DNA from: a virus
Length of the DNA: 34,107 nucleotides
Reading direction: 5' to 3' (one strand)
IMG/VR virus record: IMGVR_UViG_3300030329_003858
Coordinates: 1-34,107 of that record
The position numbers and the translations under genes were made by a program. Position 1 is the first letter of the stretch. Every line of letters begins with the position of its first letter. Below the pieces are notes generated by a model, which was not told the origin of the DNA, did not search any database, and was given only the letters and a program-made list of their open reading frames with translations. This document shows, piece after piece, positions 195 to 19,052 of this stretch.

Positions 195-581
195 ATGAAT
201 AAATGCCCTGCGTGTGGATATAATTTGTATAAAAAGCAAAATATATCCTTATCAATCAATAATCTGTTAAAACAAAGAGGAAAGAAAACTGTTAGATATT
301 TAAATAGAATAGCTTCATCTATTGTTAGAGGAATACCATCTGAAAACAGAGAAAGATATTATATGTTTTTATATGGAATAAAAAATATAGAAGACAATGT
401 TATAGATTGGGCTATTGAACAGTATCATCAAAACCAATATGTTAATACAGGTAAAGGTTTTCCTTATCTTAGGAAAATAATACAAAATAGAAATGAAAAT
501 GTGGAGGTACTAGCTAAGAATGAGAAGCTTATGTTAGGTTCATCCCCACCAATAATAGAACAAGGAGAAGAAAATGAATGA
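195..581 (+). CDS. Small Cys-motif protein, possible replication accessory protein
   Basis: Predicted 128 aa. The N-terminus carries one CPACG knuckle (residues 4-8), half of a zinc-ribbon signature with no second CxxC, so metal binding as a monomer is uncertain. Residues about 20-105 look helical and basic and include GKGFPYLRKII, a stretch that recalls the helical domains of phage replication-initiation or helicase-loader proteins; that resemblance is an impression, not an assignment. The C-terminus is acidic and overlaps the next gene by 8 bases, so translation is probably coupled. The start ATG has GGAG about 10 bases upstream. It lies upstream of a DnaB-type helicase, which would suit a loader or single-strand binding role, but no known loader family is clearly recognised. 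Confidence 0.6.
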   Translation: MNKCPACGYNLYKKQNISLSINNLLKQRGKKTVRYLNRIASSIVRGIPSENRERYYMFLYGIKNIEDNVIDWAIEQYHQNQYVNTGKGFPYLRKIIQNRNENVEVLAKNEKLMLGSSPPIIEQGEENE

Positions 582-1371: not shown

Positions 1372-2227
1372 CAAGACATTCATTGATTGTCCTGTGGTTA
1401 TGCCTTATTATGGTGGGAAGCATCAGATGAGTAAAATACTTATTCCTTTGATACCTTCTCACCAAAGGTATTTTGAGATGTTTGCAGGTGGACTTTCAAT
1501 GTTCTTTAGAAAAAAGAAATCAAAATGGAATGTCGTAAATGATATTGACAATAATATAGTAAATCTATATATGTGTGTGATAAATAATTACGATGAATTA
1601 ATAAAAAACCTTTTCTGGTTGCCTAAATCCCGTAAATTATTCCTTGATTTTAGAGAAGAAATTAAGGAAAAGAAAGAATTTGAGATTCCAGACCCATATG
1701 TTGCTGCAAAATATCTTTATTGTATAAGAAACAGCTTTAACAAACTTATACATACTCCATTTGCAAAAAGTAAAGATATGCATAAAAACTATGAAATGGA
1801 ATTAAAATACTCAAGAGAATATTTAGGGGGAACTACTATAGAAAATCTTGATTTTGAAGAATTAGTAGATAAATACCCACCTAGAAAAGATGACTTCTGG
1901 TATCTTGACCCTCCTTACTTTATTGCAACAGATAAGATAGGTAAAGGTGATTATTATATGAATTGTTTTAAAAGTGAAGACCATTTAAGGTTTAAAGAAA
2001 CAGTTGATAGAATAAATAAAGGTGGAGCAAATTTTATGATTAGCTATGATTATAGAGAAGAAGTAAGAGAGCTTTATGGTGACTATAATATAGAAGTTAT
2101 TAACTGGAAGTACACAGGTTGTACTGGAGAAGCAAGGCAAGAGCCAAGAAAAGAGTATATAGTAATGAACTATAAACCTTCATCACAAATTAATATGTTT
2201 AACAAGGAGCAAGAATATGACAGATAG
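1364..2227 (+). CDS. D12-class DNA adenine-N6 methyltransferase (Dam-like)
   Basis: Predicted 287 aa, the normal size for D12/Dam-type enzymes, which transfer a methyl group from S-adenosylmethionine to adenine N6. Visible motifs are PYYGGK (residues 14-19), FAGGLS as the AdoMet-binding motif I near residues 40-45, NDIDNNIVNLY just after it, and the catalytic DPPY at residues 182-185. The order (FxGG motif before DPPY) is that of the alpha/D12 group. No restriction partner is nearby, so protection of phage DNA from host nucleases or regulation by methylation is more likely than a restriction-modification system. No SD precedes the ATG at 1364, which lies inside the upstream gene; an internal ATG just before PYYGG is an alternative start. 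The target site cannot be read from sequence. Confidence 0.88.
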   Translation: MLSKTFIDCPVVMPYYGGKHQMSKILIPLIPSHQRYFEMFAGGLSMFFRKKKSKWNVVNDIDNNIVNLYMCVINNYDELIKNLFWLPKSRKLFLDFREEIKEKKEFEIPDPYVAAKYLYCIRNSFNKLIHTPFAKSKDMHKNYEMELKYSREYLGGTTIENLDFEELVDKYPPRKDDFWYLDPPYFIATDKIGKGDYYMNCFKSEDHLRFKETVDRINKGGANFMISYDYREEVRELYGDYNIEVINWKYTGCTGEARQEPRKEYIVMNYKPSSQINMFNKEQEYDR

Positions 2228-3542
2228 TAATGGAGAAATTAAAGCATTACCATCATCTAAAGAAGCAGAAGAAGCTTTACTTGGATGTATGATTCAAGGA
2301 GGTCAAAAGGAACAAGAGATTGGAATGGCTTGGATTAGAGATGACAATGCTTTTTATGTAGAAGATAATAAGCAGATATTTAAATGCTTAAAGCAACTAT
2401 ATAAAGACAATATTGACGTAGATTTTATTACGTTAAGCAGTAAAGTGCAAGATGCAACAGGTGAAAGTATGGCTTATTATATAACTGGATTAAGTGATTC
2501 TACGCCATCAATTTCTAATGTGAGTCATTATGCTAGGATAGTTTGGGAAAAGTACATACAAAGAGAAACTGCTAAGTCAGCACAAAAACTTGTAACTGCA
2601 AGTTATGATGATTATGATAAAGTAGGTGGAATCTTAGAAGTACATAATAGGTTAATAAAGGAATTAGAAGAAATACATCCTTCTAAAAAGAAAGATATTT
2701 CAGACCTTGTTGAAGAAATGAAAGATGTTGTTCAAGAAGATTCTAATCTAATTCCATTTAACTTAGCACATCTCGATAACTTTGCAGGTGGAATGACTAG
2801 AAAAGAAATAACAGTATTAGGAGGAAGACCTGGTCATGGTAAAACAACTCTTGTAATTAATATGGTTAGAGGATTAATTGAACAAGGATACCATGTAATG
2901 TTATTTAATCGTGAAATGAGTAATACTGAAATGTTAAAGAAGATATTGGTTATGGAAAGTGAATCGTTAGAATATGGAAATATAAGGCGAAATGACCTAT
3001 CTGAATTAGACAGAGAAGAGTTTGATAATATATCAGATAAATTAAAAATAAAATATGAAAATTTTATTATGTATGATAACATTAGAACTCTTGACGAATC
3101 TATTAGAGAAATATCTAAACATAAACCTGATGTTGTTATAGACGATTACATACAACTAATACAAGTTAATGGAGTACAAGAAGGTAGAAGGTTCGAGATT
3201 GAAAAAATAATGCAAGAATATAAATGGATATGTAAAGCAGAAAATTGTTCTGCAATTCTAGTATCTCAATTAAATAGAGAAATAGAAAAGAGATTAGACC
3301 CAAGACCTAGAATGAGTGATTATTCTGAGTCAGGTGTAATTGAACAAACTGCTGAATCTGCTATGTTTATATTTTATGGATATAATTTCGATAATGAAAA
3401 ATACCCATTGTATAAAAGTGAAGTTATTGTTTCTAAAAGTAGATATGGTAAAATTGGAACTCATATAGTAGGATTTAATGGCAATAAATGTAAATTCTAC
3501 ATGAACCCTAAGATGGCTGAAAGTGACCAATCAAGAAAATAA
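2217..3542 (+). CDS. dnaB-like: DnaB-family replicative DNA helicase
   Basis: Predicted 441 aa, the normal size for hexameric DnaB helicases, which unwind DNA at the fork using ATP. The N-terminal domain shows the family signature EAEEALLGCMI (about residues 16-26). The RecA-like motor domain has Walker A GGRPGHGKTT with catalytic Lys209, a VMLFNREMS segment, and Walker B DVVIDDYIQL with Asp309/Asp310, then the SQLNREIEKR and SDYSESGVIEQ motifs typical of DnaB. A strong AAGGAG lies 7 bases before the ATG, which overlaps the end of the methyltransferase by 11 bases. I see no primase domain, so this is a DnaB-like rather than a T7 gp4-like enzyme. Primase is not in the window. Confidence 0.95.
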   Translation: MTDSNGEIKALPSSKEAEEALLGCMIQGGQKEQEIGMAWIRDDNAFYVEDNKQIFKCLKQLYKDNIDVDFITLSSKVQDATGESMAYYITGLSDSTPSISNVSHYARIVWEKYIQRETAKSAQKLVTASYDDYDKVGGILEVHNRLIKELEEIHPSKKKDISDLVEEMKDVVQEDSNLIPFNLAHLDNFAGGMTRKEITVLGGRPGHGKTTLVINMVRGLIEQGYHVMLFNREMSNTEMLKKILVMESESLEYGNIRRNDLSELDREEFDNISDKLKIKYENFIMYDNIRTLDESIREISKHKPDVVIDDYIQLIQVNGVQEGRRFEIEKIMQEYKWICKAENCSAILVSQLNREIEKRLDPRPRMSDYSESGVIEQTAESAMFIFYGYNFDNEKYPLYKSEVIVSKSRYGKIGTHIVGFNGNKCKFYMNPKMAESDQSRK

Positions 3543-3843
3543 AAGTTGTTGGAATTGTGGTTACAGGAAAAGTAAGCAGATGTCTGAAATAGGTGTCTGC
3601 TTATATTTTCTACACATTGAAAAACCAGCAAAAAAAATACCATCTAATATTGCAGACAAAGGTTGTAAGTATTATTTTGAATCTTCAGAGTCAGAGCATG
3701 GTAAAAATATTCTTTCAGAAGTGATAGAAACATTTAATGGAGAATACATAAAAGAAAAACAAAGAAGATATTATAATAGACCTGCATATAAAAAAACATA
3801 CAAAGACAATAGACATAAATATGGAAAAAGAAAGGATTGGTAA
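3523..3843 (+). CDS. Small four-cysteine (possible zinc-binding) protein
   Basis: Predicted 106 aa from a GTG start overlapping the helicase gene by 20 bases. Four cysteines are spaced as CWNC near residue 9, CLYF near residue 26 and CKYYFE near residue 48, a pattern consistent with one zinc site. The C-terminal third is very basic (Lys, Arg and Tyr rich), consistent with nucleic-acid contact. I do not recognise a named family, although similar short CxxC...C...C proteins are frequent in phage replication operons. The SD is weak (AAGATGG). The stop TAA overlaps the probable ATG of the resolvase as TAATG. Function unknown. Confidence 0.7.
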   Translation: MTNQENKSCWNCGYRKSKQMSEIGVCLYFLHIEKPAKKIPSNIADKGCKYYFESSESEHGKNILSEVIETFNGEYIKEKQRRYYNRPAYKKTYKDNRHKYGKRKDW

Positions 3844-4349
3844 TGATTATAATAGGGATTGACCCCGGAGCTAATGGGGGAATGTGTTCATGGAGCAGTG
3901 GTATAGTTTCAATAGACAAATGTCCTAGCAGTGCTAAAAAAATGTCGATGTTAGTATCGAATATTAGTAAGAACAGTAGAAGAGATTTTGGAGGTAAATG
4001 TATTGCATATGTTGAAAAGGTTTGGGCAAGACCAAGTAATGCAACAAGAGCGGCATTTTCATTCGGAATGAACTATGGCAAATGGATAGGAGTTTTAGAA
4101 TCCAATAATATAGATATTAATTATGTTTTACCTAATACATGGATGAAGTATTGGGCTGAAAAATATGAAATTAAAATATCTAAAAAGAAAAAAGAGAGGA
4201 AAGACAAGTTAAAAGAACTTGCTTCAAAAGAGAGTAATATGAAAACAACATTATGGAGCTCGGATGCTATACTTATAGCGTCATACGGGTTTCAAATTGA
4301 AAAGGAGAAGAAAATTGAAAATAAACGCAGAAATGGAAAATCAACTTAA
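3843..4349 (+). CDS. RuvC-like Holliday junction resolvase
   Basis: Predicted 168 aa. The N-terminus IIIGIDPGANGG carries the first catalytic Asp (Asp7) of the RuvC/RNase H fold. A second acidic position is Glu58 in AYVEKV at the end of a beta strand, and a late SSDAILIA segment supplies Asp141. This D...E...D layout and the length suit RuvC-type resolvases that cut four-way junctions during recombination and before packaging. I chose ATG 3843 rather than the TTG at 3837 because the SD AAAGGA (3831-3836) is 6 bases from the ATG but would touch the TTG. The ATG shares bases with the upstream stop (TAATG). Phage versions of this kind can be poxvirus-resolvase-like; the exact subfamily is not settled. 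Confidence 0.85.
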   Translation: MIIIGIDPGANGGMCSWSSGIVSIDKCPSSAKKMSMLVSNISKNSRRDFGGKCIAYVEKVWARPSNATRAAFSFGMNYGKWIGVLESNNIDINYVLPNTWMKYWAEKYEIKISKKKKERKDKLKELASKESNMKTTLWSSDAILIASYGFQIEKEKKIENKRRNGKST

Positions 4350-4527
4350 TGAAGTTATGGACTTATATGTAAGTACACTTCAATTAACAGCAACAACATT
4401 TAATTTAATTAGAAGTTCAAATGTTAAAGGCCAAGATAGATTGAAATATGTAATAAACTCAACAAATGAATTAAAAGATTTCATTAATAAAACAGAGCCA
4501 ATGCTTAATTCTTTATTAATTGATTAA
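4315..4527 (+). CDS. Small helical hypothetical protein (last gene of the + strand operon)
   Basis: Predicted 70 aa from TTG 4315. This start is chosen because AAAGGAG lies at 4301-4307 with a 7-base spacer; an earlier in-frame TTG at 4297 has no such site. The reading frame overlaps the resolvase gene by 35 bases. The protein is mostly polar and predicted helical (ENQLNEVMDLYVSTLQLTAT, then KYVINSTNELKDFIN), with no Cys, no membrane segment and no motif I recognise. It is the last + strand gene before the convergent hairpin at 4543-4571. Function unknown. Confidence 0.65.
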   Translation: MKINAEMENQLNEVMDLYVSTLQLTATTFNLIRSSNVKGQDRLKYVINSTNELKDFINKTEPMLNSLLID

Positions 4528-4571: not shown

Positions 4572-7370
4572 CTAAGCGTATTTAGGTTCTCTTCCTTCTA
4601 ATTGTCTTAATGAGTCTTCAATAGACTTAGGTACAGTTTTCTTTCTAATATCAAAATATTCTTTTTGAATTTTTTTTGATTTTGCAGTTGGATATAATGC
4701 AAATTCTTGTTGAGCTGCCCATCCTACCCTTCCTTGTATTAATTGAGGGATATGTCTTTCTACAAATCTACCAGCAAATGTATTAAGTATTCTTATTTTT
4801 CTTGAAATGTCAGTTGAACTATTTGAAGGGTCATATTTTTCAATTCCAGTTAATAATGTAAGATATTCTTCTCCTTGTGCATTTTGAAGTTCAAGAAGCA
4901 TACCAATATCTATAATAGTAGATAAGGCAGGAAAACCTAAAGAACCAAGAACAGGCCCTTTACCATAAAAAGCTTTTTCAATATCTTCTTTATCTCCAGT
5001 TAAAACTGCAGACCATCTTTTAATTCTTTCAACTAAATCATGTTCAATTAAATTATCAAAGTCAACGCCAAAAGCCATCGAACCAAATAATGGAGCACCA
5101 AAATACAATAATCCCATTCTAATTGATTTAGCTAAACCTTGAGCTCCTCCTGGTGTATCAGATAGTAAGTGAGGATTAAACTCACCAGAAGAAATATCAT
5201 GCTTAGTTTCTCTTAAAATTTTTATATTTCTTTCTGCAAATTCCATAGAATAATGTTGAAACTGAAAAACAAATTTTCCAACCTTACTTCTCATAAGAGG
5301 AGACTTTGCATAATCAGCATAATCAAAGTGATTCATTACTACACCATTTATAGCATAATTTTCAGAATGTCTTTTTATAATATTTTCAATTTCAAGTGTA
5401 GTTTTACCATCATTTTTTAATTTAGCAACAAACTTAGGACTACTTAGCCATTGATGCATTTGAGCGTATGCTATTTTAAATGTATGTTTACGATTAGCAT
5501 TTTCAGCTTTTCTGTGTAACCATGATAATTTAGAAGCGAAAGTCCCCATTCCTTCTGCAACTTTTTCAAATCCACCTTTTGTTATAGCTTCATATTTGCC
5601 AGTTCTTTCATTATATTCAATTCTTTTTGATTTAGAAGCTTTTGTTGCTAGTTGACTTTCAACAAACTCTTGAGACCCTTCTTCAAATAATAACCCTACT
5701 TTATTTAAAACACTATCAATATAATTTTCAGCGTTACCTTCCTTAAAAGGAATTTCTCTTAAATATCTTTTAGATTTCATTATTTGAACAGGACCCCATT
5801 CAACATAATCAAGTAATCTTTGAAATGCATTTCTAGCAGCACCTCTAGGATTTAAACCAAGTTTAGATGCAAACTCAAAACTTAAAAATGTCCTCATAAC
5901 AGAATTACTAACTGAATCAATGTCATTATCACCATTAGCAGCTCTGTGCATATCTATAAGATAGTCAGCTATATTTTGAGCGTAACCCTTTGTAGAGCTA
6001 TTTTTTTTATAAATTTTTTCTACACTTCCAAGAGCATTTATTAGATGTGAATCCATATAAGCGGTATAATTAAACCTATTAACATCAAAAACATAATTAT
6101 CTATAGCATTAAAAAAGTTTCTACTATAATCATACACAAATCCTTTATCTCTCTCCTTCATGTTTTGCTGTCTTAATTTAGTATGCTCACTTATATGAAG
6201 TTTCATACTATTAATAATAGTTTTTATATCTTTACCTTTAACATCGTATGGATTAACAGACCTCTGCATATCATCAAATGGTCTCATAAGTCCAGTTAAA
6301 AATTCAGCATTTAAATCTCTTGTATAGTGAGGAAAGAATCCCTGCTCATACTTAGGCATATACATACCTTTAAGTTTTTTTCTTAAATCTTTAACATCTT
6401 TAGCTGATTTTTTTTGACCATTAACTTCTAATCTTTTGATAACAGATTCAATTCTTGCATCTACTCCATTTCTTAATGTTTTATACATACCATCCATTAA
6501 TTGAGTGTATCCTAATATAGCATTATACATATGGTCAGATTCTATTATACTTCTTCCATCAGTCATTTTAAGGTATTTACTTATTTCTGAATCAGTTAAT
6601 TTTAAAACCTTATCTCCATTTCTATATTCTTCTACTTTTTTAGCAAGTTTTTTATTAATAACATTACCATTTCTATCGTAAGCCTTTTTATTTAAATCAT
6701 TAAATTTATCTTGTATGGCTAAAGGTATTTGTTTTTCAATTATATTTAAAGCATCATCAAACACTGCAAGAGAACTATTCTTTAAGAACTCATTAGTTTC
6801 TTTTTTTATATCATTATATTTTTTCTCAGCCCCTTCAACACCATTCTTAACATCAGCAGTGGCTTTTAATAATTTATCATCAAGATTTCTTAATTTTCTT
6901 CTAGCTAATTTTATACCTATTTTACTAGAAGCTCCTCTCATTAAGGCTTCTTTTTCTAACTCTCTAGTAATCTTACTAACTAATCTCTTATCTCTTACTT
7001 GATTAGCTCTAAAATAAAAACTTGATTGCTGTGAATCATTTAAAAATTTTCCAATAGAAGGGTCTTTTTTACCATAGTGAGAAGACTGCCAAAAAATTTG
7101 AGCAAACTTAGAATCCAGTTCACCTGACTTAACATTACTTTTATATTCTTCTAGTCTTGATAAAAATGAACTTACCTGACCTTTAGTTAAATTATCAGCA
7201 TATTTTAAATTATCTAAAGGCATTAAAAAGTCAGCTTCAACAAGCCTAAATACAGCTTCGTAAGGGTCTGTAAATATTTCTTTACTGCTGTCTTTTTCAG
7301 CCCAAAGACTTATACCTTTTATTAGATTATTATAGTTACTATTTAGAAGCTTACAGTCTATGTTAGACAT
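4572..7370 (-). CDS. Large internal virion/ejection protein candidate (932 aa)
   Basis: Predicted 932 aa, last gene of the late operon, directly after the giant polymerase-like gene and overlapping its end by 13 bases. SD GAGGAG (7382-7387) lies 11 bases upstream of the ATG. The first two thirds are long, charged and helix-rich. The last third has glycine-rich hydrophobic stretches (about residues 743-766, with MGLLYFGAPLFGSMAFG, and about 803-825, with GSLGFPALSTIIDIGMLLEL) and aromatic/amphipathic helices (KFVFQFQHYSMEF). Large proteins of this build next to internal virion genes are typical of DNA-ejection proteins that pass through the tail and contact the membrane. I recognise no enzyme motif. 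The ejection role is inferred from composition and position. Confidence 0.6.
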   Translation of the reverse strand: MSNIDCKLLNSNYNNLIKGISLWAEKDSSKEIFTDPYEAVFRLVEADFLMPLDNLKYADNLTKGQVSSFLSRLEEYKSNVKSGELDSKFAQIFWQSSHYGKKDPSIGKFLNDSQQSSFYFRANQVRDKRLVSKITRELEKEALMRGASSKIGIKLARRKLRNLDDKLLKATADVKNGVEGAEKKYNDIKKETNEFLKNSSLAVFDDALNIIEKQIPLAIQDKFNDLNKKAYDRNGNVINKKLAKKVEEYRNGDKVLKLTDSEISKYLKMTDGRSIIESDHMYNAILGYTQLMDGMYKTLRNGVDARIESVIKRLEVNGQKKSAKDVKDLRKKLKGMYMPKYEQGFFPHYTRDLNAEFLTGLMRPFDDMQRSVNPYDVKGKDIKTIINSMKLHISEHTKLRQQNMKERDKGFVYDYSRNFFNAIDNYVFDVNRFNYTAYMDSHLINALGSVEKIYKKNSSTKGYAQNIADYLIDMHRAANGDNDIDSVSNSVMRTFLSFEFASKLGLNPRGAARNAFQRLLDYVEWGPVQIMKSKRYLREIPFKEGNAENYIDSVLNKVGLLFEEGSQEFVESQLATKASKSKRIEYNERTGKYEAITKGGFEKVAEGMGTFASKLSWLHRKAENANRKHTFKIAYAQMHQWLSSPKFVAKLKNDGKTTLEIENIIKRHSENYAINGVVMNHFDYADYAKSPLMRSKVGKFVFQFQHYSMEFAERNIKILRETKHDISSGEFNPHLLSDTPGGAQGLAKSIRMGLLYFGAPLFGSMAFGVDFDNLIEHDLVERIKRWSAVLTGDKEDIEKAFYGKGPVLGSLGFPALSTIIDIGMLLELQNAQGEEYLTLLTGIEKYDPSNSSTDISRKIRILNTFAGRFVERHIPQLIQGRVGWAAQQEFALYPTAKSKKIQKEYFDIRKKTVPKSIEDSLRQLEGREPKYA

Positions 7371-10300
7371 TGATTTTTTATCTCCTCAAATTTCTGTTTT
7401 GCATCTGAACTTTTTTTAATTATATTATTTTTAATATTTTCACTATTTTTAGATATATCCGAAATATGCTTTAATCTTTCAAAAGACTTTGTATTTCTTT
7501 TTTCTATTGTTGTACCCCTAAAATAGTTTTCACCTCCTATTAAAGCAAATACAGGATTATTAAGAATATTTTGAACTGTTTTAGTTTTGCCTTTTTCGTA
7601 TATAACTCCACTATTAAATACATTCTTCGCTATTTCCATAACTTCATTGTCCATCTGAGACCTCATTGAAAGATATTCAACAGGGTCAATTATCTCCATA
7701 TTAATTAATCTTTCTTGTATCTCATTCATTTGGGTAAGATATGACTCAAACTCTAATTCCTTACCTGCGACTTTCATTATATCTCTATAAAAAGATATTG
7801 TGCTATCATTAAGTAATTTATTATTTGCCCCTATTCTATCGCTATCTGCATAAAATCTAAGTCCTTCATACCTTGAGAACATTTTAGTAAAACTTTTATC
7901 AAATTTAGGCATTTTCATATATTTAAAAACCCAGTTTGCTTCATCATCTGTATAACTATTCTCATCATACATTTTTCTCATATCTACTTTATTATTGTAA
8001 TATCTTTGCCATTGAGATTCCAATAACCCGGTAGTTTTTAATATTTGCTCAGCATATATTCTATTGTTATCAGAAGCTTGAATAGTACCATTCGCTATCC
8101 CAGTTAAAAACTTAATCCCCCTTTGATATCTTTTTGTATTTTTAAAAGGAATAGGTTGAGGTCTGTTTTCAAATACTCCAATAGAATATTTATCTTTACC
8201 GGGATTCATAAATGCATATAAAAATCTCATACCATATTTATTAATACCATCAAGTAATAATTGATTTTCAATATCATAAATAGTAGATAAATCTGAGTCA
8301 AAGTTTTTCAATAATTTTCTATTTTCTTCGCTAATATTAAAAGTATAGTCTTTACTATATTCAAAAATTTGTTTTAAAGTAGTTCTATTACCATAAAAAC
8401 TTTTTCTTATATTTTTCAATGTATTTAATTCCGCTATTCCACTTTTACTTAATCCAAAGGAATCGTCATCACCTACCCCAGGTAAATGATATCTTATATT
8501 ATTTAAAACATTATAATATATAGTAGATTTTTTTATATCTTCATCAGTTATGGCGACTATGCTCATTTTTTTTAAATCTTTAGATTTTTTCGTCTTCCAA
8601 TATTTCTTTGGAATCATAGAACTGATTCTTTTTTCTTGTTCTTTAATAAAATTATTAATCTTATCTATGCTTTTCTTTTTTACACCAAAACTAATTTTTT
8701 CATTATTGTTTATTTGAGAAATTTTATATTTTAAATTTTTTATTAAATTTACCGTTTTAGTTAAACCATAATTAGCTGTAGCAACATTTTGAGCTAATAG
8801 AGCAGTAGCTGCTTCTACATCTTGAATGGATGGGCCAGATTCAACTTCAAAATACCAATCATCAATCATAGAAGCCATGTTTCCAGTTATATCCACCCTT
8901 CTATTTCTTTTAAAAACATCTGATATATTAAGATTCATTAAAATTCTGTCAACTGGAGCTCCTCTTTGAGCTGTTGTAAACTCTACTCCATTCTTATTAA
9001 CATCTTCATTAACAAAATTCATAGTAGGCTTATAATATTTTTTAGTTTCACCTGCATCATCTTTATACTCACCAGATACTACTCCAAATAATTTTTTAAA
9101 AATTTTCCCTCCAGGAGTATTTTCATCTCTCCACCTATATTTTGTCCCAGGTTGAAATTTATTTCTTAACCTATAATACAAACTATTATTAATATTTTTA
9201 TTGAAATTCTTAAAGTTTTCAGTTGCATCATTTATATCCTCAAATGAAGATTTCTTTTTCATCCCACTATTTTCGTACATATGTGAGCCAGTGATATTTA
9301 AAAGGCTTCCATATTCATTTAACATTTCTTTTATTGCTGCAATCTCTAAATCATTTAAATTCTTTTCTGTCCATACTTTATTTATCTCATCATATTCTAA
9401 TTTACGAAAAATTCTTATTCTTTTATTGCGAGAATTTCCTCTCGCTCTCATATCATTAATAAGATTAATATCATTTTGATTCCTAGCTACATTAGGAGTA
9501 AAAGATTCCTCTTTCCTAGGAAATAAGAAATCATTTGCCCATGAAAATATATCTTTTGATATGTTCTCATTTATCTTTCCTTTAGCATCAATAAGATATT
9601 GAGTTTCTAAAGCAGCTCTTGTAAAGAAATCATTATTATCAAAGTCAACATATATTTTAAAATTCTTATTTTCACCGCTACCTCCAAATAATAATCTTGC
9701 GTTATCAAATGATGCATCAGGGTTATCCTTTTCAAATGCTTTTAAAGTATCGTCATTTTTATCAACTCTGACACCAAGTTTTTCTATATATCCTAATTTT
9801 CTTGGAATAGTTTGAACTATACCAATAGAAGATTTAAACAATTCATTATCTGCTGATATTGTATTAATAGTTTTTATAATCTCAGTTACACTCATATTTT
9901 TAAAATCTATAGGTCTTTCACTAATATATTGTGTTGGGTCAACTCCTTGTACAAAAAATTGAGACGCTCTTTCTATATGGTCATAAAAACTATCTTTTTG
10001 AGAAAACCAATAATCAGCTTTATCTACGTCATAATCTCCTTCATAAATATTAGCAACATCAAAGCTGTTAATTTGCATGGAATTTCCAAATTCATCATCT
10101 AAGAACCCTTTAAGGCCTAAAACACTCATATCATTTGGCCTTGTTCTTGGCTGTCTTCTTACAGCAATAGCAATTCTAAGCCCTTGAGGGAGATTTCCTT
10201 CTTCTTTTAATAGTTCTATTATATCATGTAAATGTCCAAGCCTGAGTATTCCATCTCCAGATTGTCTTTGGATATTTTTCCATACATTTTCAGGGAAAAT

Positions 10301-13300
10301 ATCTTCACCCCTCATAAAACCCCTTTTTTCTTTAGTCATTTGTTCTTTAGTCATTTTGACACCAGACATAACAAATCTTACATTTAATTTTTTATTTTTT
10401 TTGTTATTTTCTCCATCTAATATTTCTACAGGGGCATTATAATCTCTGCTAGAGAGCATTACCTCTCCTCTCATTAACATATCACCTTTTTTATCCACAA
10501 CAGTAGGATTTAATCTATCACCGGTCTGTATTAATATTGACTGACCTCCATATCTTTGGTTTTCGTCATCTCCCCTTCTATTACTTTTATTAACAACAGA
10601 CCTCATATTATTAATAAGACTCCCAATGTACATATTGTAAAGCTTATTTTTAACAAGTCCATCACTGTATGTCATCGGGTCCATATCTCTACTTAAATTT
10701 GAATAAAAAACCATATTATTTATATGAGACATTCCTTCTGACTGGGCTATTGTTGACATCATATTATCGTCTACCCCAGACTCAAGCAATACCCATTTTC
10801 TTAAAGCAATAGGGTCGCTCATCATTGTTTTAATAGCCTCTATCCCTTTATTAACGTGTTCTGCGTAAAAATCTCTATATGCATCTGATGATTCTCGATT
10901 GTTTTTGTAATTATGGTCAGAAGCAGCTTCTTTAGCTGTGTTAATATAATAATCTTTATCAGCTTTCAATCCTACTGAATCTAAACTTATTTTTCTAATA
11001 TGGTCTTTAGTTACTTTAGTTTTGCTAATAGAATCAAATGTTGAATCTTTAGTTCTAAATAAAGACACCTCTGTGCCTTCTATAAATTTAGGATTATAAG
11101 CTTTTGCTCCGCTCTCAGTTAATAATATATCAACACCTTCTCTATTAAAAAACTCATCAAGTTTGTTATTATAAACAAATAATGTTTTACCTAAAACTAA
11201 TGGGCTATCTTCACCCTGAGATGATATTACAGGCTTAATAGGTGTAAAACTATTAGGGTCGTGACCAATAATAGCTTTCTGAGCTCTTAACATATCCCTA
11301 GAAACAAAAGCTATGCTATCAAAAGATGTTGCTTTTTCATGTGCATTTCCTATGGTATCATTTAGATTAATATTGTCAATTCCAGCTTCTTTTATTAATT
11401 CCTCAGTCTCTTTTCTTAAATTTGCATTTAATCCATCATCCCATATAACTAGGTTATATCCGTCTTGTTTTATATACTTATCTAATGAACTTGATATTTC
11501 TTCGCTAAAACTACCTATACCAGCTTTATTTGCAAGATTATTTAAAGTATTATATCTTGACTGTACATTCTTCATAAATTCTTTGTCAGCTCTTAAAAAC
11601 TTCTTTGAATTAAAAATCTTAATTCTTCCCATTGTTTTTGCAGTATTTTTACCATTTATCCAATCAACAAAAAATTTATTACCATCTGAGCCAGTAAGCA
11701 TTTTTTCCATTGATAATACAGTTAAAGCATAATTATAATTATCAACAGGGGTTTCAGCTGTAAACCCATCGCTAATTTCATTTATATTTTCAATTATTTT
11801 TTCACTTACACCTTCATATAATTTGACTCTATTGTTAAATTCTTTAAATGCGTCAGATATATTTGAAAGCTCATTATATGATATTGATATAGGTTCAAGA
11901 TTTGGAGATACTCTCATAATAACGGTTCCCATTTCTCCATCTACACCTGTATTTAAAATGTCCCCCTCAGAATATATTTTATTACCCATAATTTTTTCAA
12001 ACATATCCCTAGAAGATTGAATCTTTTCTCTTATATCTACACTTAAGTTATCGGTATCTCCAAAAATATTTATATTAACTCTATTTATTCTTCTACCATC
12101 ATCAGAAAGCTCATAAATAACGGCTCTTGTGTCTACAAGACTATAATTTAATTTTAAATCTTGTCTATAAAAATCACTCAACTTTGACCTTTGCATTACT
12201 TCACGAGAATTTTTAACTTTACCATCAACCCATTTAACAACATTAATTCCAAATTGAGATTTATATTGAGCAACTAAACCTACAACATCTCTAATTATCT
12301 CTTCTCCCGCTTGACTTTTAGATATATCATCTAATTCTTTATAAGAAAGAAACGTATTTCCTCTTCTTATAAAAATTCTATCAAAGATATTATCTAATAC
12401 ATCCTTTTTTAATTTTAAGTTACCATCAGGGGTATATAATAAGGTATTCAGGTTCTCATTTAAAGACTCTGTATTACTAATATCTATTTTATATCCATCA
12501 ATTCTATATTTAGTGTAAAATTCTGTTAATGTTATATTTTTATTATATTCAGATTCATCTACATCCTCCCACATAAAATCACGAGCTTTTTGCTCCCATT
12601 CATTGTATTTCCTACGGGCGTATTGAGCTGTATATCCATGAGCGTCCATTTTTTGTGAAATATCTTTAGTGATATCTGACCAAGGTTGTTCTTCATCTTT
12701 TTCTTTTATTTTATTAACAAGCTTATCAACAGCAATATCAAAGTCATTTGTTTTTTTATAAGTTAATACTTTTGCATCTGCTAACCATTTTAATAGCATA
12801 GTATTATTACCTCTAGCTGCATTAGAGAAAAGTTCCATTTGATATACAAAGCTAGATAAATTATACTTAGATGATTGTATACTATTAAATAAGTCCATTA
12901 AAGCTGAAGAAGCTTGTGTTTTCTCAAAATCATACCTAGGGAAGAAAGAGTTTATTCCTTGATAAAATCCACTATCATTAGTTTTTATTGTATCATCAAG
13001 AATTGCTATTAGACCCGCACTATCCTTTTCGGCTTTATCAATAAAATTATTATATCTTTGAGCAATAATATAACTCTCACTATTAGGGTTAATAAATGAT
13101 AAATCAATTTTTCTTACTCTAAACCCTCCTGCCATTCCTTTCTCTTTTGTTCCAAATCTAGTTAGATAAAGACCTTCAACCTCATGGTGAGAAAGATTAA
13201 ACAGTGTATCTACCGTGTCTATTGTTAGATTAGTTCCTTTTATTTTATCTCTTATAGCATAATCAATTAATTGTGAAGACATATAGTCATTCATACTATC

Positions 13301-16102
13301 TAAATCAATACCTCTGTTTTTAAAGAATGTTTTCAGATTATCAACATCTTCCATCTTAATATGTATTTTTTCTCTTTTTGAGGTCTCATAAGTTTTATAG
13401 TCATCAGCTCCAACAATAGATTGTAATGTTAAAATTCTACCTAAAAATCTTTTAGCATCTGACACCTTATCTTCTGCGATTGAATCAGTTTTCCCGTCTG
13501 AATCTTGAATTTTTATATTAGAGATGCTATCAACTATCATATATTCGCCTATTCCTTCCTTACCTGCATACAGTAGTCCGCTTGCTCTTAAATGTCTTTT
13601 TAATTCATCTCTAGTTTCTCTATCAATATCTGACTTAAAAATAGAAATAGTATTTTCTGCAACTCTAATTGTATGATTTGTTGCTAAAATTTCAACGTAA
13701 TCATCCATATTCCTTCCAAATCTAAATGCATCAGTTCCAATAGATTTTGAACGAAATTGATTATTAATATTCATTTCTGATTCTTTTACTTTATTGTAAA
13801 TCTTAGAAAGTAATTCTTCATTATCTAATTTAAATGAAGTTTCAAATTTTTTAGGTATCTTATTTGTTATAGTTTGACCAAGAAGCCTTGAAGTCATAAA
13901 TATAGCATTTAAAGATTCACTAAGATTTGATATCTCATCAAGAGCCTTATCACCACTAAGAACATTATTATTTTCGTCTACCAACCATTTCAACTCACCT
14001 CTCTCTGCTTTGTTTTTAAAGTCAGTTAAGCTTATATGTTGAGGTACATATACCTCTCTTGCTCCATCAGTATTGGTTATGATATCTACTCCAGTTACTT
14101 TATCAACGTCTTCATTGAAAATGAAATCAACTATACTAGGAAATTCTTCTTCAAATTTTTCTGTTGTCTTTAAAATTGACTCACCAGTAACTCTTCTTCT
14201 CTCATTTGGATTAATAAGTCTAGGTTCAATTTCAAGTGCTTTTTTTGCAATCCTATCTGCAGTTTCAACAGATATATCTTCCATAGGTTTAAGAAATATA
14301 TCTACCCCTTTAGCGTTTTTATATAAAAGTGAAAAAACTGGATTTTCTTTTAAAACTACACTTTGAGCTCCTTCAGCTAATCCAGACTCAGAAGTTTCAA
14401 AATTATCAGTTATAATACCTTCTTCCCTCATCATATCTTCTACAGGCTTATATTTAGTGTCATTAAATATACTATTAACATTTAACCCTGTACCTTCAAA
14501 TGTAGGTATTCTTGAGAACTGCTCAGGAGAAACACCTAATAAAGTTAAATTTTGTCTCAATTCATTCATTTTAGAGGAATTTAAATCCACTTTAGCTGGA
14601 TTATTTCTTCTTTGCATCCAAGCTCCTATTAGGAAATGAGGCATTATATCAGATGCCACACTTATGTCAGCATCGCTGTTATACATATGCCAAAAGGTTT
14701 GAGTATTAAACAACAATCCCCCCATTACCATTCTTTTCCATACTTGAGCCAAGCTTTGAGCTTCTTCTTTAGTAGCCCACTTAATAAATTCCCTTCCAAA
14801 TAATTTTCTTTGAGATTGAAGATGCTCAGTCAAATACTTTACACCTTTTTTCCCAAACTCTTTTTCTAAATCTTTTTCTAAAAATCTACTCGTCAAGTCA
14901 AATTGTTTCCCTCTTATCTTTACATTTGCAGTTCCTCTTACAATCTCATTAGTAGACTGGTCAACTGTCCTGGTCATATTTTTTAATTGATTGCCCCAAA
15001 ACTTTGCAGTAGAAAGCATATGCTCTGTTGTTTTATTTTTATAAGGGTCTTTCCCAAAAGCTGCTCTTGCACCTGCTATAAAATCTTTTTTCCATACAGT
15101 TGACTTCCCTTTAGGTCTTAACCACCCAAGAGAAGCGAAAGCCGCTCCATTTGCTACCCCCCATATGGGTTGAGTCCAATCAAAATCATATCCACCATCA
15201 CCAACAGTATTCTCACCTAAATATCTTGTTGTTTCCATAACTGTATCTATCATTGAAAATATAAATACATCATTTGCAACATGACCTAACCACCTAGACA
15301 TTCTTTTATCTGCTCCTGCTCTAGCAGTCATCACTCCAACAAAATCTTGAATAGGTCTTCTATATAAATTGCTTTCAGAAAATAATCTATTTAATCCATT
15401 AATTTGCCTTTCAGATAAATTTGAACCTCTTATATATTCATCTAAATAATTTTTAACTTTAAATTTAAATTCTTTGCCCCATAGATTAGGATTTATTTGA
15501 GACTCACCAACAATCCTATTATAACCTTTTAAGACATTTTTTCTTACATCTCTAGATAGACCTAGTTCTAGTGCTTTTTTATTAGCAATTCTATTAATTG
15601 AATCAGCAGTCTCAAGACCTGTCTTTTTAAGTAACTGCTTGCCAAAAGTTGCCATGGCTAATTTCTGAGCACCTCTTCCTACTATTCTCATTGGAGCTCC
15701 ACCTACAAATCCTGCGAATCCTCCAAGAGCTCCAGTCCACTTAGCAGCTGGGTCATCAAAGTCAAGATAATCTTCTACGTCAACACCTCCAGCTTTTAAT
15801 AAATAATTAGGAATATTTAAAGCTAAAGTATCAACTCCCTGCCATAATCCAGCTCCAACAGCATTAAGAAAGCCTGCATTAGGAGTAGGTTCGTCTTGAT
15901 ACCATGCAGGAAATGTACCAGTTTCCATAGCTGACCATAAATCAGAGGGATTTCTAACTGGAACTTGAGAAGGTCTTTGTTGTTGAGGCCCAACTTTATT
16001 ATCGGATATATCTTCTAATATATTTAAAGCGGTATTTATACTTCTATTTCCAAGCTGCTGCTTAAACCTAGAAGTTAGAGCATCATCATCATATATTGAC
16101 AT
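7358..16102 (-). CDS. Giant virion protein with double-psi beta-barrel RNA polymerase core (putative virion RNA polymerase)
   Basis: Predicted 2914 aa in one intact frame of 8.7 kb. Residues 1-550 are structural/ejection-like, with Gly/Ala-rich hydrophobic stretches near 84-104 and 131-141. Residues about 1592-1668 resemble the beta-type barrel of single-chain polymerases: FDSIAFVSRDM, then IKPV with Lys1623, Lys1639, and VDILLTESGAKA. Residues 1982-2036 resemble the beta-prime barrel: RRQPRTRP, a conserved-length GN-S-M-Q-I strand, then YEGDYDVDKAD with Asp2023, Asp2025 and Asp2027 at the positions of the metal-binding DFDGD aspartates in YNADFDGDQ. The C-terminal 600 residues are helical and unassigned. 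Known relatives of this architecture are QDE-1 and the large virion RNA polymerases of crAss-like phages. Packaging and early transcription are inferred from its position between ejection genes. The start is 5 bases after the previous stop, with a weak AAGGT site upstream. Confidence 0.75.
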   Translation of the reverse strand: MSIYDDDALTSRFKQQLGNRSINTALNILEDISDNKVGPQQQRPSQVPVRNPSDLWSAMETGTFPAWYQDEPTPNAGFLNAVGAGLWQGVDTLALNIPNYLLKAGGVDVEDYLDFDDPAAKWTGALGGFAGFVGGAPMRIVGRGAQKLAMATFGKQLLKKTGLETADSINRIANKKALELGLSRDVRKNVLKGYNRIVGESQINPNLWGKEFKFKVKNYLDEYIRGSNLSERQINGLNRLFSESNLYRRPIQDFVGVMTARAGADKRMSRWLGHVANDVFIFSMIDTVMETTRYLGENTVGDGGYDFDWTQPIWGVANGAAFASLGWLRPKGKSTVWKKDFIAGARAAFGKDPYKNKTTEHMLSTAKFWGNQLKNMTRTVDQSTNEIVRGTANVKIRGKQFDLTSRFLEKDLEKEFGKKGVKYLTEHLQSQRKLFGREFIKWATKEEAQSLAQVWKRMVMGGLLFNTQTFWHMYNSDADISVASDIMPHFLIGAWMQRRNNPAKVDLNSSKMNELRQNLTLLGVSPEQFSRIPTFEGTGLNVNSIFNDTKYKPVEDMMREEGIITDNFETSESGLAEGAQSVVLKENPVFSLLYKNAKGVDIFLKPMEDISVETADRIAKKALEIEPRLINPNERRRVTGESILKTTEKFEEEFPSIVDFIFNEDVDKVTGVDIITNTDGAREVYVPQHISLTDFKNKAERGELKWLVDENNNVLSGDKALDEISNLSESLNAIFMTSRLLGQTITNKIPKKFETSFKLDNEELLSKIYNKVKESEMNINNQFRSKSIGTDAFRFGRNMDDYVEILATNHTIRVAENTISIFKSDIDRETRDELKRHLRASGLLYAGKEGIGEYMIVDSISNIKIQDSDGKTDSIAEDKVSDAKRFLGRILTLQSIVGADDYKTYETSKREKIHIKMEDVDNLKTFFKNRGIDLDSMNDYMSSQLIDYAIRDKIKGTNLTIDTVDTLFNLSHHEVEGLYLTRFGTKEKGMAGGFRVRKIDLSFINPNSESYIIAQRYNNFIDKAEKDSAGLIAILDDTIKTNDSGFYQGINSFFPRYDFEKTQASSALMDLFNSIQSSKYNLSSFVYQMELFSNAARGNNTMLLKWLADAKVLTYKKTNDFDIAVDKLVNKIKEKDEEQPWSDITKDISQKMDAHGYTAQYARRKYNEWEQKARDFMWEDVDESEYNKNITLTEFYTKYRIDGYKIDISNTESLNENLNTLLYTPDGNLKLKKDVLDNIFDRIFIRRGNTFLSYKELDDISKSQAGEEIIRDVVGLVAQYKSQFGINVVKWVDGKVKNSREVMQRSKLSDFYRQDLKLNYSLVDTRAVIYELSDDGRRINRVNINIFGDTDNLSVDIREKIQSSRDMFEKIMGNKIYSEGDILNTGVDGEMGTVIMRVSPNLEPISISYNELSNISDAFKEFNNRVKLYEGVSEKIIENINEISDGFTAETPVDNYNYALTVLSMEKMLTGSDGNKFFVDWINGKNTAKTMGRIKIFNSKKFLRADKEFMKNVQSRYNTLNNLANKAGIGSFSEEISSSLDKYIKQDGYNLVIWDDGLNANLRKETEELIKEAGIDNINLNDTIGNAHEKATSFDSIAFVSRDMLRAQKAIIGHDPNSFTPIKPVISSQGEDSPLVLGKTLFVYNNKLDEFFNREGVDILLTESGAKAYNPKFIEGTEVSLFRTKDSTFDSISKTKVTKDHIRKISLDSVGLKADKDYYINTAKEAASDHNYKNNRESSDAYRDFYAEHVNKGIEAIKTMMSDPIALRKWVLLESGVDDNMMSTIAQSEGMSHINNMVFYSNLSRDMDPMTYSDGLVKNKLYNMYIGSLINNMRSVVNKSNRRGDDENQRYGGQSILIQTGDRLNPTVVDKKGDMLMRGEVMLSSRDYNAPVEILDGENNKKNKKLNVRFVMSGVKMTKEQMTKEKRGFMRGEDIFPENVWKNIQRQSGDGILRLGHLHDIIELLKEEGNLPQGLRIAIAVRRQPRTRPNDMSVLGLKGFLDDEFGNSMQINSFDVANIYEGDYDVDKADYWFSQKDSFYDHIERASQFFVQGVDPTQYISERPIDFKNMSVTEIIKTINTISADNELFKSSIGIVQTIPRKLGYIEKLGVRVDKNDDTLKAFEKDNPDASFDNARLLFGGSGENKNFKIYVDFDNNDFFTRAALETQYLIDAKGKINENISKDIFSWANDFLFPRKEESFTPNVARNQNDINLINDMRARGNSRNKRIRIFRKLEYDEINKVWTEKNLNDLEIAAIKEMLNEYGSLLNITGSHMYENSGMKKKSSFEDINDATENFKNFNKNINNSLYYRLRNKFQPGTKYRWRDENTPGGKIFKKLFGVVSGEYKDDAGETKKYYKPTMNFVNEDVNKNGVEFTTAQRGAPVDRILMNLNISDVFKRNRRVDITGNMASMIDDWYFEVESGPSIQDVEAATALLAQNVATANYGLTKTVNLIKNLKYKISQINNNEKISFGVKKKSIDKINNFIKEQEKRISSMIPKKYWKTKKSKDLKKMSIVAITDEDIKKSTIYYNVLNNIRYHLPGVGDDDSFGLSKSGIAELNTLKNIRKSFYGNRTTLKQIFEYSKDYTFNISEENRKLLKNFDSDLSTIYDIENQLLLDGINKYGMRFLYAFMNPGKDKYSIGVFENRPQPIPFKNTKRYQRGIKFLTGIANGTIQASDNNRIYAEQILKTTGLLESQWQRYYNNKVDMRKMYDENSYTDDEANWVFKYMKMPKFDKSFTKMFSRYEGLRFYADSDRIGANNKLLNDSTISFYRDIMKVAGKELEFESYLTQMNEIQERLINMEIIDPVEYLSMRSQMDNEVMEIAKNVFNSGVIYEKGKTKTVQNILNNPVFALIGGENYFRGTTIEKRNTKSFERLKHISDISKNSENIKNNIIKKSSDAKQKFEEIKNQCLT

Positions 16103-16107
16103 CTCTA

Positions 16108-17763
16108 TTAAATTTTACCTTCAGATTTTAATTGTTTATACTCTTGAATTAAACTATGTATCTCCCATCCAGCTAGTCCAATATCAACTAACCCCATAAC
16201 AAGATTTATACCGATAGCCGCAACAGGAGCTCCTGGCCCTGTAATAGCTGAAGCTGTGGTTCCTGCAGCGTGACGAGCAACTGCTTTTGATATAAATTTT
16301 GAGCCCCTCTTTTTTATTCTAGTAGCTAGCCATGCTGTAAAACCTGTAGTACCAACTGCCTTACCGTAAAAACCTCCAGTTTCTCCTCCAATCAATTCTC
16401 CAATTTCTTCAGCTAAAAATAATGGACTATATTTTAAACCTTTCCCTATAATACCTTTGCCAGGTACTTTTTGAAAAGCTTTTTTAATACTATCACTAAT
16501 TTTTATATCCTTTATATACATAGAAACCTCTCTAAACACAGCTGAAGACTTAGTAGCTCTTCTTCCAGCTTCTCTAGCTTTTTTAATAGCTGGTTCCAAT
16601 ATTTTTCTATTTTGTCTAATTACATCTGGGTCTTTAGAGTCAAAATCTATATTTTTAAAATCTTCCCTACTTATACCATATTTTTTAAAGAAATCTTTTT
16701 TGAGCTTTTTATCTACGGCTTCTCTACCTTTTTGGAATTTTTTAGCATCTTCATCTGTAGATGGTAATTTATTTAAAGGCAAATATTTTTGTCCAGGAAC
16801 CTGTAAACTTGTCGGCTTTAAGTCTTTTCTTAACCCCTTCAAAAAATCATTATAACCTTTAGTGTATCTCTTGTATTCTTTTAAAGCTTTCCCAGATAAA
16901 TACTGTCCCCCTGCTGCTGAACTAATTACTCCAATATAAGTTCCTAATCCTGGCTCCCATGTTTCTTCTCCAATCGTATCATCTGAACTAATATTACTCA
17001 TATCTGAGATAATCCTATCATAAGGAACAATATTAGTATCAGTAGTTTTCTCAATCTCTTTATCTGCTCCTTTATATATATCGAAATCAGATTGTATATC
17101 ATAGTCTCCTTTTGCGAACTCATTAATCTCTTTATATATATTTGACTCTGCATCTTGCAATCTAATAGCTTGATTAGTAACATCAAAAATATTAGAGTCA
17201 ACTCCTATACCATAAACAGACTTAATTTCTCCCTTTTTACCCCTTACAACTTTTGGAGTAAACCCTTGATAAAATTTTGCAGAAGGACTTCCCTTAGCCT
17301 GAACACCAAGAGATACTATGTCTCCAACAGCATCATTTAAGTCTCTTGCTAAAGATAAAACTGCATCAGGACTATTTGCATTATAATAACTCCACAAGGC
17401 AGTTGCAATTTTCTGAGCATCTTTAATAGGGAAATCTTTCCCCATTCCACCTTTTTCTTTTTTCTTGAGAATTGCTTGTGTCATCTCAGTAATAGCAACT
17501 GAAGATTCTTCACCTTTAGCTGAAGGTTTATAAAATTTTGAAAGGTTGCTTTTAGTTAAAAAATCTTCAGCAATTTTAGGTTTTATTTGCTCTAAACTTT
17601 TTGAAATCAATTCAATATTCGACTTAGCTACATTCATTTTTTGCATTTTTATAGTTTGAGCTATTTGCAAAGAATCCATAGCGCTCTGAACTCTAAATCT
17701 TTCTTTCTCTGTATTACTCTGTAGTATTTTATCTAATGCCGTTAATGGTGATTGTAAACTCAT
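16108..17763 (-). CDS. Internal virion / membrane-penetration protein candidate (551 aa)
   Basis: Predicted 551 aa. The N-terminal 400 residues are polar, Lys-rich and predicted helical. The last 100 residues switch to Gly/Ala-rich hydrophobic segments: GGFYGKAVGTTGFTAWLA, then GTTASAITGPGAPVAAIGIN followed by LVMGLVDIGLAGW. A long soluble arm with a pore-like hydrophobic tail fits a phage ejection protein that inserts in the host envelope. It lies between a 184-aa Gly-start protein and the giant polymerase-like gene, separated from the latter by 5 bases, so the set is probably made together and packaged together. No lysozyme or peptidase motif is visible. The ATG has only a weak SD (GGGTAA). 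The function is inferred from composition and context. Confidence 0.6.
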   Translation of the reverse strand: MSLQSPLTALDKILQSNTEKERFRVQSAMDSLQIAQTIKMQKMNVAKSNIELISKSLEQIKPKIAEDFLTKSNLSKFYKPSAKGEESSVAITEMTQAILKKKEKGGMGKDFPIKDAQKIATALWSYYNANSPDAVLSLARDLNDAVGDIVSLGVQAKGSPSAKFYQGFTPKVVRGKKGEIKSVYGIGVDSNIFDVTNQAIRLQDAESNIYKEINEFAKGDYDIQSDFDIYKGADKEIEKTTDTNIVPYDRIISDMSNISSDDTIGEETWEPGLGTYIGVISSAAGGQYLSGKALKEYKRYTKGYNDFLKGLRKDLKPTSLQVPGQKYLPLNKLPSTDEDAKKFQKGREAVDKKLKKDFFKKYGISREDFKNIDFDSKDPDVIRQNRKILEPAIKKAREAGRRATKSSAVFREVSMYIKDIKISDSIKKAFQKVPGKGIIGKGLKYSPLFLAEEIGELIGGETGGFYGKAVGTTGFTAWLATRIKKRGSKFISKAVARHAAGTTASAITGPGAPVAAIGINLVMGLVDIGLAGWEIHSLIQEYKQLKSEGKI

Positions 17764-17769
17764 ATATTA

Positions 17770-18324
17770 TTACCCAAATATGTTTTTGCCTGGGTACCAG
17801 GCGTCTCTTTGTTGTTTAGCTAACTCTTTCATCCTTATCAATTCTTTTTGTTGTGAACTAATTTTTGATGTTTCTGTAGCAAAATAATCGGAAATATTCT
17901 TCATTCCTTCACCATATAAATCTAATAGATTTGATTGAGATACAGATGCTCCTACATTAAGTCTCTTCATTGTATCTTCTTTCATTCCTTCCAATTCTTT
18001 ATGAGTCGCAAACCCTGTTTTAACATCATACTTTTTAGTTATTTCAGAAGCAGTATCACTAACTTTTATTCCTAAATCTTTAGTAGCTACATCAAGTTTT
18101 TTCCCAACAATTTCTTCTCTTGATTTAACTTCAGCTGCTAGGTTTTTCTTTGCTTTAGTCAAATCTCTTAACCCTTCATTAATATTACTAATTTGACTTT
18201 CTGCTAACTGAGAGCTAGACCTGCCAGACTGGAAACTATCCCAAAGAGACAATCCCATGCTAAAGGCAGCAAAAGGGCCGCCTAAATACCCTACTCCTTT
18301 AGAAAGCATACTACCTATATTCAT
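17770..18324 (-). CDS. Small internal virion protein candidate (184 aa)
   Basis: Predicted 184 aa. The first 30 residues are glycine-rich and hydrophobic (GYLGGPFAAFSMGLSLWDSF). The rest is a long polar helix-rich or coiled-coil section (about residues 38-170, rich in Lys, Glu, Ser and Gln) ending WYPGKNIFG. This layout is common in small ejection proteins of short-tailed phages, which sit in the capsid next to the portal. The ATG overlaps the upstream stop as ATGA (18321-18324), so translation is coupled to the 228-aa gene. No recognised family; the role is inferred from neighbours. Confidence 0.6.
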   Translation of the reverse strand: MNIGSMLSKGVGYLGGPFAAFSMGLSLWDSFQSGRSSSQLAESQISNINEGLRDLTKAKKNLAAEVKSREEIVGKKLDVATKDLGIKVSDTASEITKKYDVKTGFATHKELEGMKEDTMKRLNVGASVSQSNLLDLYGEGMKNISDYFATETSKISSQQKELIRMKELAKQQRDAWYPGKNIFG

Positions 18325-19007
18325 TCTAGTGTGTATGGCTCCATATTATCTTCATAGAAATATGGGCTCTGTGTATTAATAGAAGGACTCTGTTTATCGG
18401 TAACTTCACCACTTTGATTATCAATGCCTATTGATATATTACTTGTTATATTATCAAAATCTGATATATCATTAAAATTAAATCCCATTCTATCATACAA
18501 GCTGGATGCTCCTGAAAAATCCATAAGGTTTGTTGTTGCTATGATATTTGATTTTTTATAAAATTTATCAGAATCTTTTCCAAAACTATATTCAGGTTCT
18601 CTTCCAAAGATATTATCCCAATAACTTCTTTCCTTTTCAATAGGTCTCGACTTATTTAACCATAATTGTTTTTCATCTACACCTAATTCATCCCAATTAG
18701 GAGATATTCCAGTTTGCTCACTAGAGTATTCTTCATATTCTTTCTTAGCTATTGACTCATTTATAAAAGATAAATTTTCTTCAAATTCTTTTTTAGCTTC
18801 ATATCCTCCATAAATTTTACTTCCTAAAGAGGCAGCTGCAGAAAGAGTATCTATAATATTTGATGCTTTGTCTGATTTTATTTTAAATAAATCTTCTGTA
18901 TATTTCATTCTAGAGCTTACATCAGAAGCATCATAAAGGCTTGAAATATATGATGATGAGGCATCTGCAGATTTTTTATGCAAAGTATATAAACTATCTT
19001 TTGCCAT
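18321..19007 (-). CDS. Virion-associated protein, first gene of the ejection cassette (228 aa)
   Basis: Predicted 228 aa from ATG 19007. A TTG directly in front (19010) is also in frame, and the SD AAAGGAG at 19018-19024 is 10 bases from the ATG and 7 from the TTG, so the start is ambiguous by one residue. The N-terminus is Ser/Tyr-rich with a short Ala/Gly stretch (TLSAAASLGSKIYGG, about residues 57-71). The rest is acidic and polar with many Phe, Tyr and Trp. I recognise no domain. It is the first gene after the only sizeable gap (87 bases) in this part of the late operon, a gap that contains a promoter-like sequence, and it leads the run of putative ejection genes. Uses TGA as stop. Confidence 0.6.
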   Translation of the reverse strand: MAKDSLYTLHKKSADASSSYISSLYDASDVSSRMKYTEDLFKIKSDKASNIIDTLSAAASLGSKIYGGYEAKKEFEENLSFINESIAKKEYEEYSSEQTGISPNWDELGVDEKQLWLNKSRPIEKERSYWDNIFGREPEYSFGKDSDKFYKKSNIIATTNLMDFSGASSLYDRMGFNFNDISDFDNITSNISIGIDNQSGEVTDKQSPSINTQSPYFYEDNMEPYTLE

Positions 19008-19052
19008 CAATAAATGACTCCTTTGTTAAATAAAGATATAAAGATTCGCATA

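Follow-up and report, generated by a model that had tools for sequence, protein, structure and literature searches.

A giant protein of 2914 amino acids (aa), encoded in a 34,107-nucleotide stretch of viral DNA (the window; positions 1 to 34,107 of IMG/VR virus record IMGVR_UViG_3300030329_003858, which has 39,293 bases), contains the motifs of a two-barrel RNA polymerase. We hold with good confidence that the protein is such a polymerase, probably packaged in the virion, ejected into the host and transcribing early genes. The original prediction, made from the sequence alone, pointed to window positions 9960-11340, which correspond to residues 1588-2048. The residues that it named lie where it had put them: R1983, P1985, R1988, D2023, D2025, D2027, K1623, K1639, FDSIAFVSRDM from residue 1594 and ILLTESGAKA up to residue 1668. 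Modelling strongly supports a polymerase reading of the wider region of residues ~1400-2480, where computation shows both the fold and the catalytic residues, and RNA polymerase activity is likely.

The protein belongs to a family that conventional searches miss. As a whole it has no relative in Pfam, PHROGs, PDB sequences or 50,697 phage records (the last by tblastn), and a search of viral contigs with all 2914 residues gave no confirmed match. Scanning the contigs with residues 1975-2095 yielded 21 loci, and an alignment-based scan gave 93 confirmed matches, so that the family is present in at least 93 IMG/VR contigs. Eighty of the 93 were kept and 78 distinct family sequences were recovered. 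A scan of bacterial and archaeal genomes returned no confirmed relative, and hence neither a prophage copy nor a clue to the host.

Conservation in this family is concentrated on the polymerase motifs. All 78 distinct sequences fit the pattern [RKS]-x-P-x(28-42)-E-[GA]-D-[YF]-D-x-D and keep the KP...GKT motif. In a set of 18 sequences with identities down to 17%, no change is seen in D2023, D2025, D2027, E2021, K1623, K1639, K1667 or the PRTRPNDM segment; among 49 near-full-length proteins the same seven residues and P1985 are present without exception, followed by R1983 (48/49), R1986 and R1988 (45/49 each) and K2028 (44/49). The motif of the original prediction thus holds for its aspartates and two lysines and less strictly for R1988, and the ILLTESGAKA string that it quoted includes a further invariant lysine, K1667, which it had not singled out. 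It had also turned on homologues keeping the three aspartates, and the triad is intact in all 49 proteins and all 78 sequences. Averaged over blocks of 50 residues, column conservation reaches its highest values at 1601-1650 (0.64), 2001-2050 (0.62), 2151-2200 (0.55) and 1951-2000 (0.53), with nearly all other blocks at 0.2-0.49, and, apart from 2151-2200, the peaks coincide with the motif blocks of the two barrels. On its own, D-[hydrophobic]-D-x-D is frequent (21 matches in 106,314 residues of seven genomes). The fuller R-x-P-x(25-45)-D-[FYW]-D-x-D has a single match per genome when all six frames of the seven are read, and each match lies in the giant protein. Two family members (L084:5366-14305 and L088:5261-14269) carry an insertion between the barrels, upstream of R-x-P, that looks like an inserted domain; the segment common to both reads VDMYE.P..K...DVWVV...L...Q..SIKKGKGKG.NFA.KIT...DHYI..H..GD.KHI.I.G.EP.GL.

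The predicted structure gives the same picture. AlphaFold2, run on residues 1400-2480 with a 50-sequence alignment, produced a model with a predicted local distance difference test score (pLDDT) of 83.1 and a predicted template modelling score (pTM) of 0.82. In a Foldseek search of the PDB, eight matches reached E<=1e-3, each a two-barrel single-chain RNA polymerase. The virion RNA polymerase of the crAss-like phage phi14:2 (6vr4) ranked first (E 2.4e-8, prob 1.00), followed by six QDE-1 chains (QDE-1 E 2.2e-5) and maize RDR2; below these eight came the largest subunits of Pol I/II and viral RNA polymerases. The original prediction had likened the protein to QDE-1 and to crAss-like virion polymerases, which fill ranks 1-7, and had staked itself on the presence of barrels, where the model indeed matches solved two-barrel enzymes. 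With VIA-align 2, P74-26 gp62 (8f5m) was the top match (Z 11.3, 4.2 A, 411 residues aligned), ahead of 6vr4 (Z 11.0, 5.1 A, 658 residues) and of RDR2 and QDE-1 (Z 9.3-10.2), and the Pol I/II largest subunits were matched as well. In BFVD, the matches included crAss-like phage proteins as well as relatives of full length, at 22% and 17% identity.

A link to the crAss-like enzymes can also be traced at the level of sequence profiles. At the corresponding motif, phi14:2 gp077 (2180 aa) has IGYRIPNQGQSSNDPLQIVGILPEAMGDTIVAYTEIPTKTGSDFDIDKMY and the giant protein has IAVRRQPRTRPNDMSVLGLKGFLDDEFGNSMQINSFDVANIYEGDYDVDKADY. Aligned by hhalign with nine crAss-type sequences, the family profile fell best exactly on the register of the Asp motif with a score of 40.9 (E 0.0022, probability 12.8%). 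Shuffling the columns 40 times gave at most 28.6, and reversing the profile gave 23.1. K1667 and gp077 K1065 are paired in a second alignment, which is weaker (E 0.033). The lysines K1012, K1027 and K1065 are invariant in the crAss alignment and are spaced by 15 and 38 residues, versus 16 and 28 for K1623, K1639 and K1667. The first barrel of QDE-1 has K743 and K767 as its conserved lysines (PMC1750930); by this analogy, K1639 and K1667 may form the active-site pair instead of K1623 and K1639. Flavobacterium phage Fpv2, whose record does not place it in Crassvirales, has a structural protein of >3,000 aa with the crAss-type motif RTPTSSHKS...GLDYDIDKE; this DYDID polymerase is detectable from gp077, and such enzymes are therefore not confined to Crassvirales.

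Genome context bears on how the polymerase may be used. Open reading frames (ORFs) were called in seven genomes, that of the window and six relatives of 44.8-54.5 kb. In all seven, the giant gene is penultimate in the structural operon and faces the replication block, and the last gene of the operon encodes 898-950 aa. In the phi14:2 record, gp077 is penultimate and gp076 last, meeting a plus-strand block, and tandem mass spectrometry is given as the basis for calling gp077 a structural protein. The virion cargo of crAss001 includes three polymerase-associated proteins (PMC10172136). From gene position, ORF architecture and the analogy with crAss-like phages and N4, we infer that the polymerase is packaged in the virion. 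In this reading, residues ~1400-2480 form a single-chain double-psi beta-barrel (DPBB) RNA polymerase of the crAss-like/P23-45/QDE-1/RDR kind, one barrel giving the invariant lysines K1623, K1639 and K1667 and the second the Mg-binding triad D2023/D2025/D2027. The protein would most likely be made late, packed together with neighbouring internal proteins and ejected with the DNA or ahead of it, and it would transcribe early phage genes, likely those of the convergent replication block, until the host polymerase takes over. Like N4 and crAss-like phages, these phages thus probably bring a polymerase of their own into the host to begin transcription.

The flanking regions may share in this process. 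A model of residues 50-1240 is mainly helical (pLDDT 77.5, pTM 0.65) and matched nothing in the PDB above Z 6.7; most of its PDB matches were ABC-transporter helices, which we took as noise. Its only significant matches were proteins that also match the polymerase region, and these are full-length family members or close kin. In a simple hydropathy scan, the giant protein showed no transmembrane-type hydrophobic segment and its 551-aa neighbour showed one near the C-terminus. The flanks and the 551-, 184- and 229-aa neighbours are candidates for a role in ejection. Two further sets of matches were set aside: caspase-7 in a PDB profile search, which was weak (E 0.07-0.9), lay at residues ~1480-1575 outside the barrels and was treated as chance, and the hepatitis delta virus (HDV) antigen, excisionase and others in family scans of the full protein, all sub-threshold.

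Several observations weigh against our reading. Outside the Asp motif, profile-profile significance is weak (probability 12.8%, E 0.0022), and hhalign with the single sequences of P23-45 gp64 and gp96 gave no in-register alignment. Whole-model TM-scores to the solved single-chain enzymes are low (0.18-0.25), which means that the match is one of the core and its arrangement. The early regions yielded no virion RNA polymerase promoter motif: k-mers repeated in five genomes resemble ribosome-binding sites rather than a phage promoter. Sigma-70-like sites are no commoner than in shuffles. The lineage is not known from any isolated or analysed particle, and we know of no virion proteomics or biochemistry for it.

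One alternative is that the two-barrel RNA polymerase acts only inside the infected cell, on middle or late genes, and that it lies in the structural operon by coincidence. We regard this as unlikely, even though the lineage has no known virion data and P74-26 gp62, the gp64 homologue, is the top VIA-align match. Non-virion two-barrel phage polymerases do exist, P23-45 gp64 among them in a survey of 23 polymerase families (PMC10770324). However, gp64 is compact (616 aa) and lies among early genes, whereas the 2914-aa protein sits in the structural operon in 7/7 genomes, as is also the case for the large virion polymerases of crAss-like phages and, according to the literature, for that of N4.

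Very improbable is a reading in which the barrels are real and their function is another, be it that of a two-barrel DNA polymerase, a primase or an inactive scaffold keeping the fold. Archaeal PolD is a two-barrel DNA polymerase according to the same survey (PMC10770324), and the early proteins translated in three genomes include none that was recognised as a DNA polymerase. But all eight Foldseek matches at the threshold are RNA polymerases, the closest being a virion enzyme with the same gene position, and the completely conserved Asp triad argues against an inactive scaffold. Phages of similar size often rely on the host replication polymerase, which also counts against a DNA polymerase. 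A chance resemblance, with DxDxD and RxP coincidental in a structural protein, could appeal to how common the bare D-x-D-x-D is and to the lack of sequence matches in Pfam, PHROGs and PDB, but is effectively refuted by invariance over 78 sequences, the conservation peaks and a confident model whose structure matches are two-barrel polymerases.

A packaged two-barrel polymerase as the preferred reading leaves the matter of its lineage. The portal (phrog_156, P22_portal), capsid (phrog_1328, E 5e-10; SU10_MCP) and terminase (phrog_38) differ from those of phi14:2 (phrog_6547, phrog_11589 and phrog_6681, respectively); hhalign with phi14:2 detected no portal or capsid similarity and for terminase only a 41-column match (E 0.0014). 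By these families, the lineage falls outside Crassvirales. No second RNA polymerase motif was seen in a six-frame pattern search of the seven genomes, whose records may be incomplete. A search for T7-like RNA polymerase (PF00940) gave nothing here or in the control genomes and is uninformative; no early ORF exceeds 600 aa in the three genomes with early regions translated. In our estimate, it is somewhat more probable than not that these phages are an uncultured lineage outside Crassvirales, with ~50-kb genomes, whose sole RNA polymerase comes from a family of its own: giant two-barrel virion enzymes with an N-terminal half of unmatched structure that serves packaging and ejection.

Table 1. 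Features of the giant gene and its surroundings (window coordinates). Limits of DPBB-A and DPBB-B are inferred from predicted strand positions.
Feature	Position	Strand	Remark
Giant 2914-aa ORF with internal two-barrel RNA polymerase	7358..16102	-	Kept full length across the family
Polymerase region, residues 1400-2480	8663..11905	-	Model pLDDT 83.1, pTM 0.82
Probable lysine-bearing barrel DPBB-B, residues ~1598-1713	10964..11311	-	Many strands in model; conservation peak
Lys1623 (IKPVISS), invariant	11234..11236	-	Family alignment
Lys1639 (LGKTLFVY), invariant	11186..11188	-	Family alignment
Lys1667 (TESGAKA), invariant	11102..11104	-	Family alignment; paired by hhalign with phi14:2 K1065
Probable catalytic barrel DPBB-A, residues ~1850-2032	10007..10555	-	Model and structure matches
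RQPRTR, residues 1983-1988	10139..10156	-	Counterpart of beta-prime R-x-P-T-L-H-R and crAss R-[IV]-P-[TN]
DYDVD, catalytic triad Asp2023/Asp2025/Asp2027	10022..10036	-	Invariant in family
Candidate bridge helix, 38-residue predicted helix 2072-2109	9776..9889	-	Model; follows DPBB-A
Residues 50-1240, mainly helical	12383..15955	-	Possible packaging or ejection role
Residues 2481-2914	7361..8662	-	C-terminal flank
932-aa protein, last gene of structural operon	4572..7370	-	Adjoins giant gene; 7/7 genomes
551-aa protein, candidate ejection or membrane protein	16108..17763	-	Hydrophobic stretch around residue 514
184-aa protein, candidate small ejection protein	17770..18324	-	Inferred from position
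229-aa protein, candidate ejection protein	18321..19010	-	Inferred from position
Convergent replication/early block	195..4527	+	DUF932, D12 DNA methyltransferase, DnaB helicase, Holliday junction resolvase

Other genes were noted along the way. The family of the 932-aa neighbour was considered as a relative of large phi14:2 proteins, but its best hhalign match, with gp78, had E 0.022 and was not used. Inside the structural gene region lie a 271-aa protein with a class II aminoacyl-tRNA-synthetase-like catalytic domain (26976-27791, minus strand; Pfam tRNA-synt_2 E 3e-11, phrog_29758 E 2e-83) and a 267-aa concanavalin-A-like (Laminin_G_3) protein (28421-29224, minus strand), possibly a receptor-binding or capsid decoration protein. 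No tRNA gene was found in the window. Adjoining early ORFs of a relative (G003 37423-39025) resemble, by eye, ThiF/E1-like (GCGAIGSSAAMQLARMGAENFALYDGD) and JAB/MPN-like (WWHSHAKMDAFWSGTD) proteins. L002:49-888 (minus strand), near window 34050-34120 and just upstream of the capsid gene, has four undetermined residues (a run of N).

Virion polymerases provide phage transcription before reliance on the host enzyme, and two-barrel versions are already established for crAss-like phages and P23-45. To judge from sequence, the present proteins are a separate family in a different phage lineage, with no relatives in the libraries searched, although the giant-protein family may already be listed in the survey cited above. 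An orphan family in at least 93 uncultured contigs, with about half the genome size of crAss phages, suggests that the strategy is wider than annotation shows. It also assigns a function to a giant ORF family unrecognised by Pfam and PHROGs and offers a compact system for testing entry and first transcription.

The closest known counterpart is phi14:2 gp077 (KC821624), which shares the single-chain two-barrel fold, an R-x-P...DFDIDK motif, similarly spaced lysines and the penultimate position in a structural operon converging on replication genes. It differs in lacking BLAST-level similarity (11-12% identity in structural alignment), in its shorter length (2180 versus 2914 aa), in a genome of ~100 kb versus ~50 kb here, and in its portal, capsid and terminase PHROGs. 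Thermus phage P23-45 gp96 is likewise a virion polymerase with a two-barrel core fused to a giant protein, but that protein is a tail tape measure in a long-tailed phage and carries the polymerase in its N-terminal part, whereas here the polymerase is central to C-terminal; P23-45 also has a second polymerase, and none was seen here. The second P23-45 enzyme type, gp64, and P74-26 gp62 share the two-barrel core. The RNA-interference polymerases QDE-1 and plant RDR2 have the single-chain two-barrel core, the three catalytic aspartates and the conserved lysines of the first barrel (DPBB1), but they are eukaryotic and non-viral, lack giant flanking domains and are ~10-12% identical. The virion polymerase of N4 (Schitoviridae), gp50, is T7-like, whereas modelled residues 1400-2480 match the unrelated two-barrel fold. 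What the two have in common is the giant single chain, which in N4 has ~3,500 residues and is ejected with two other proteins (PMC12633501).

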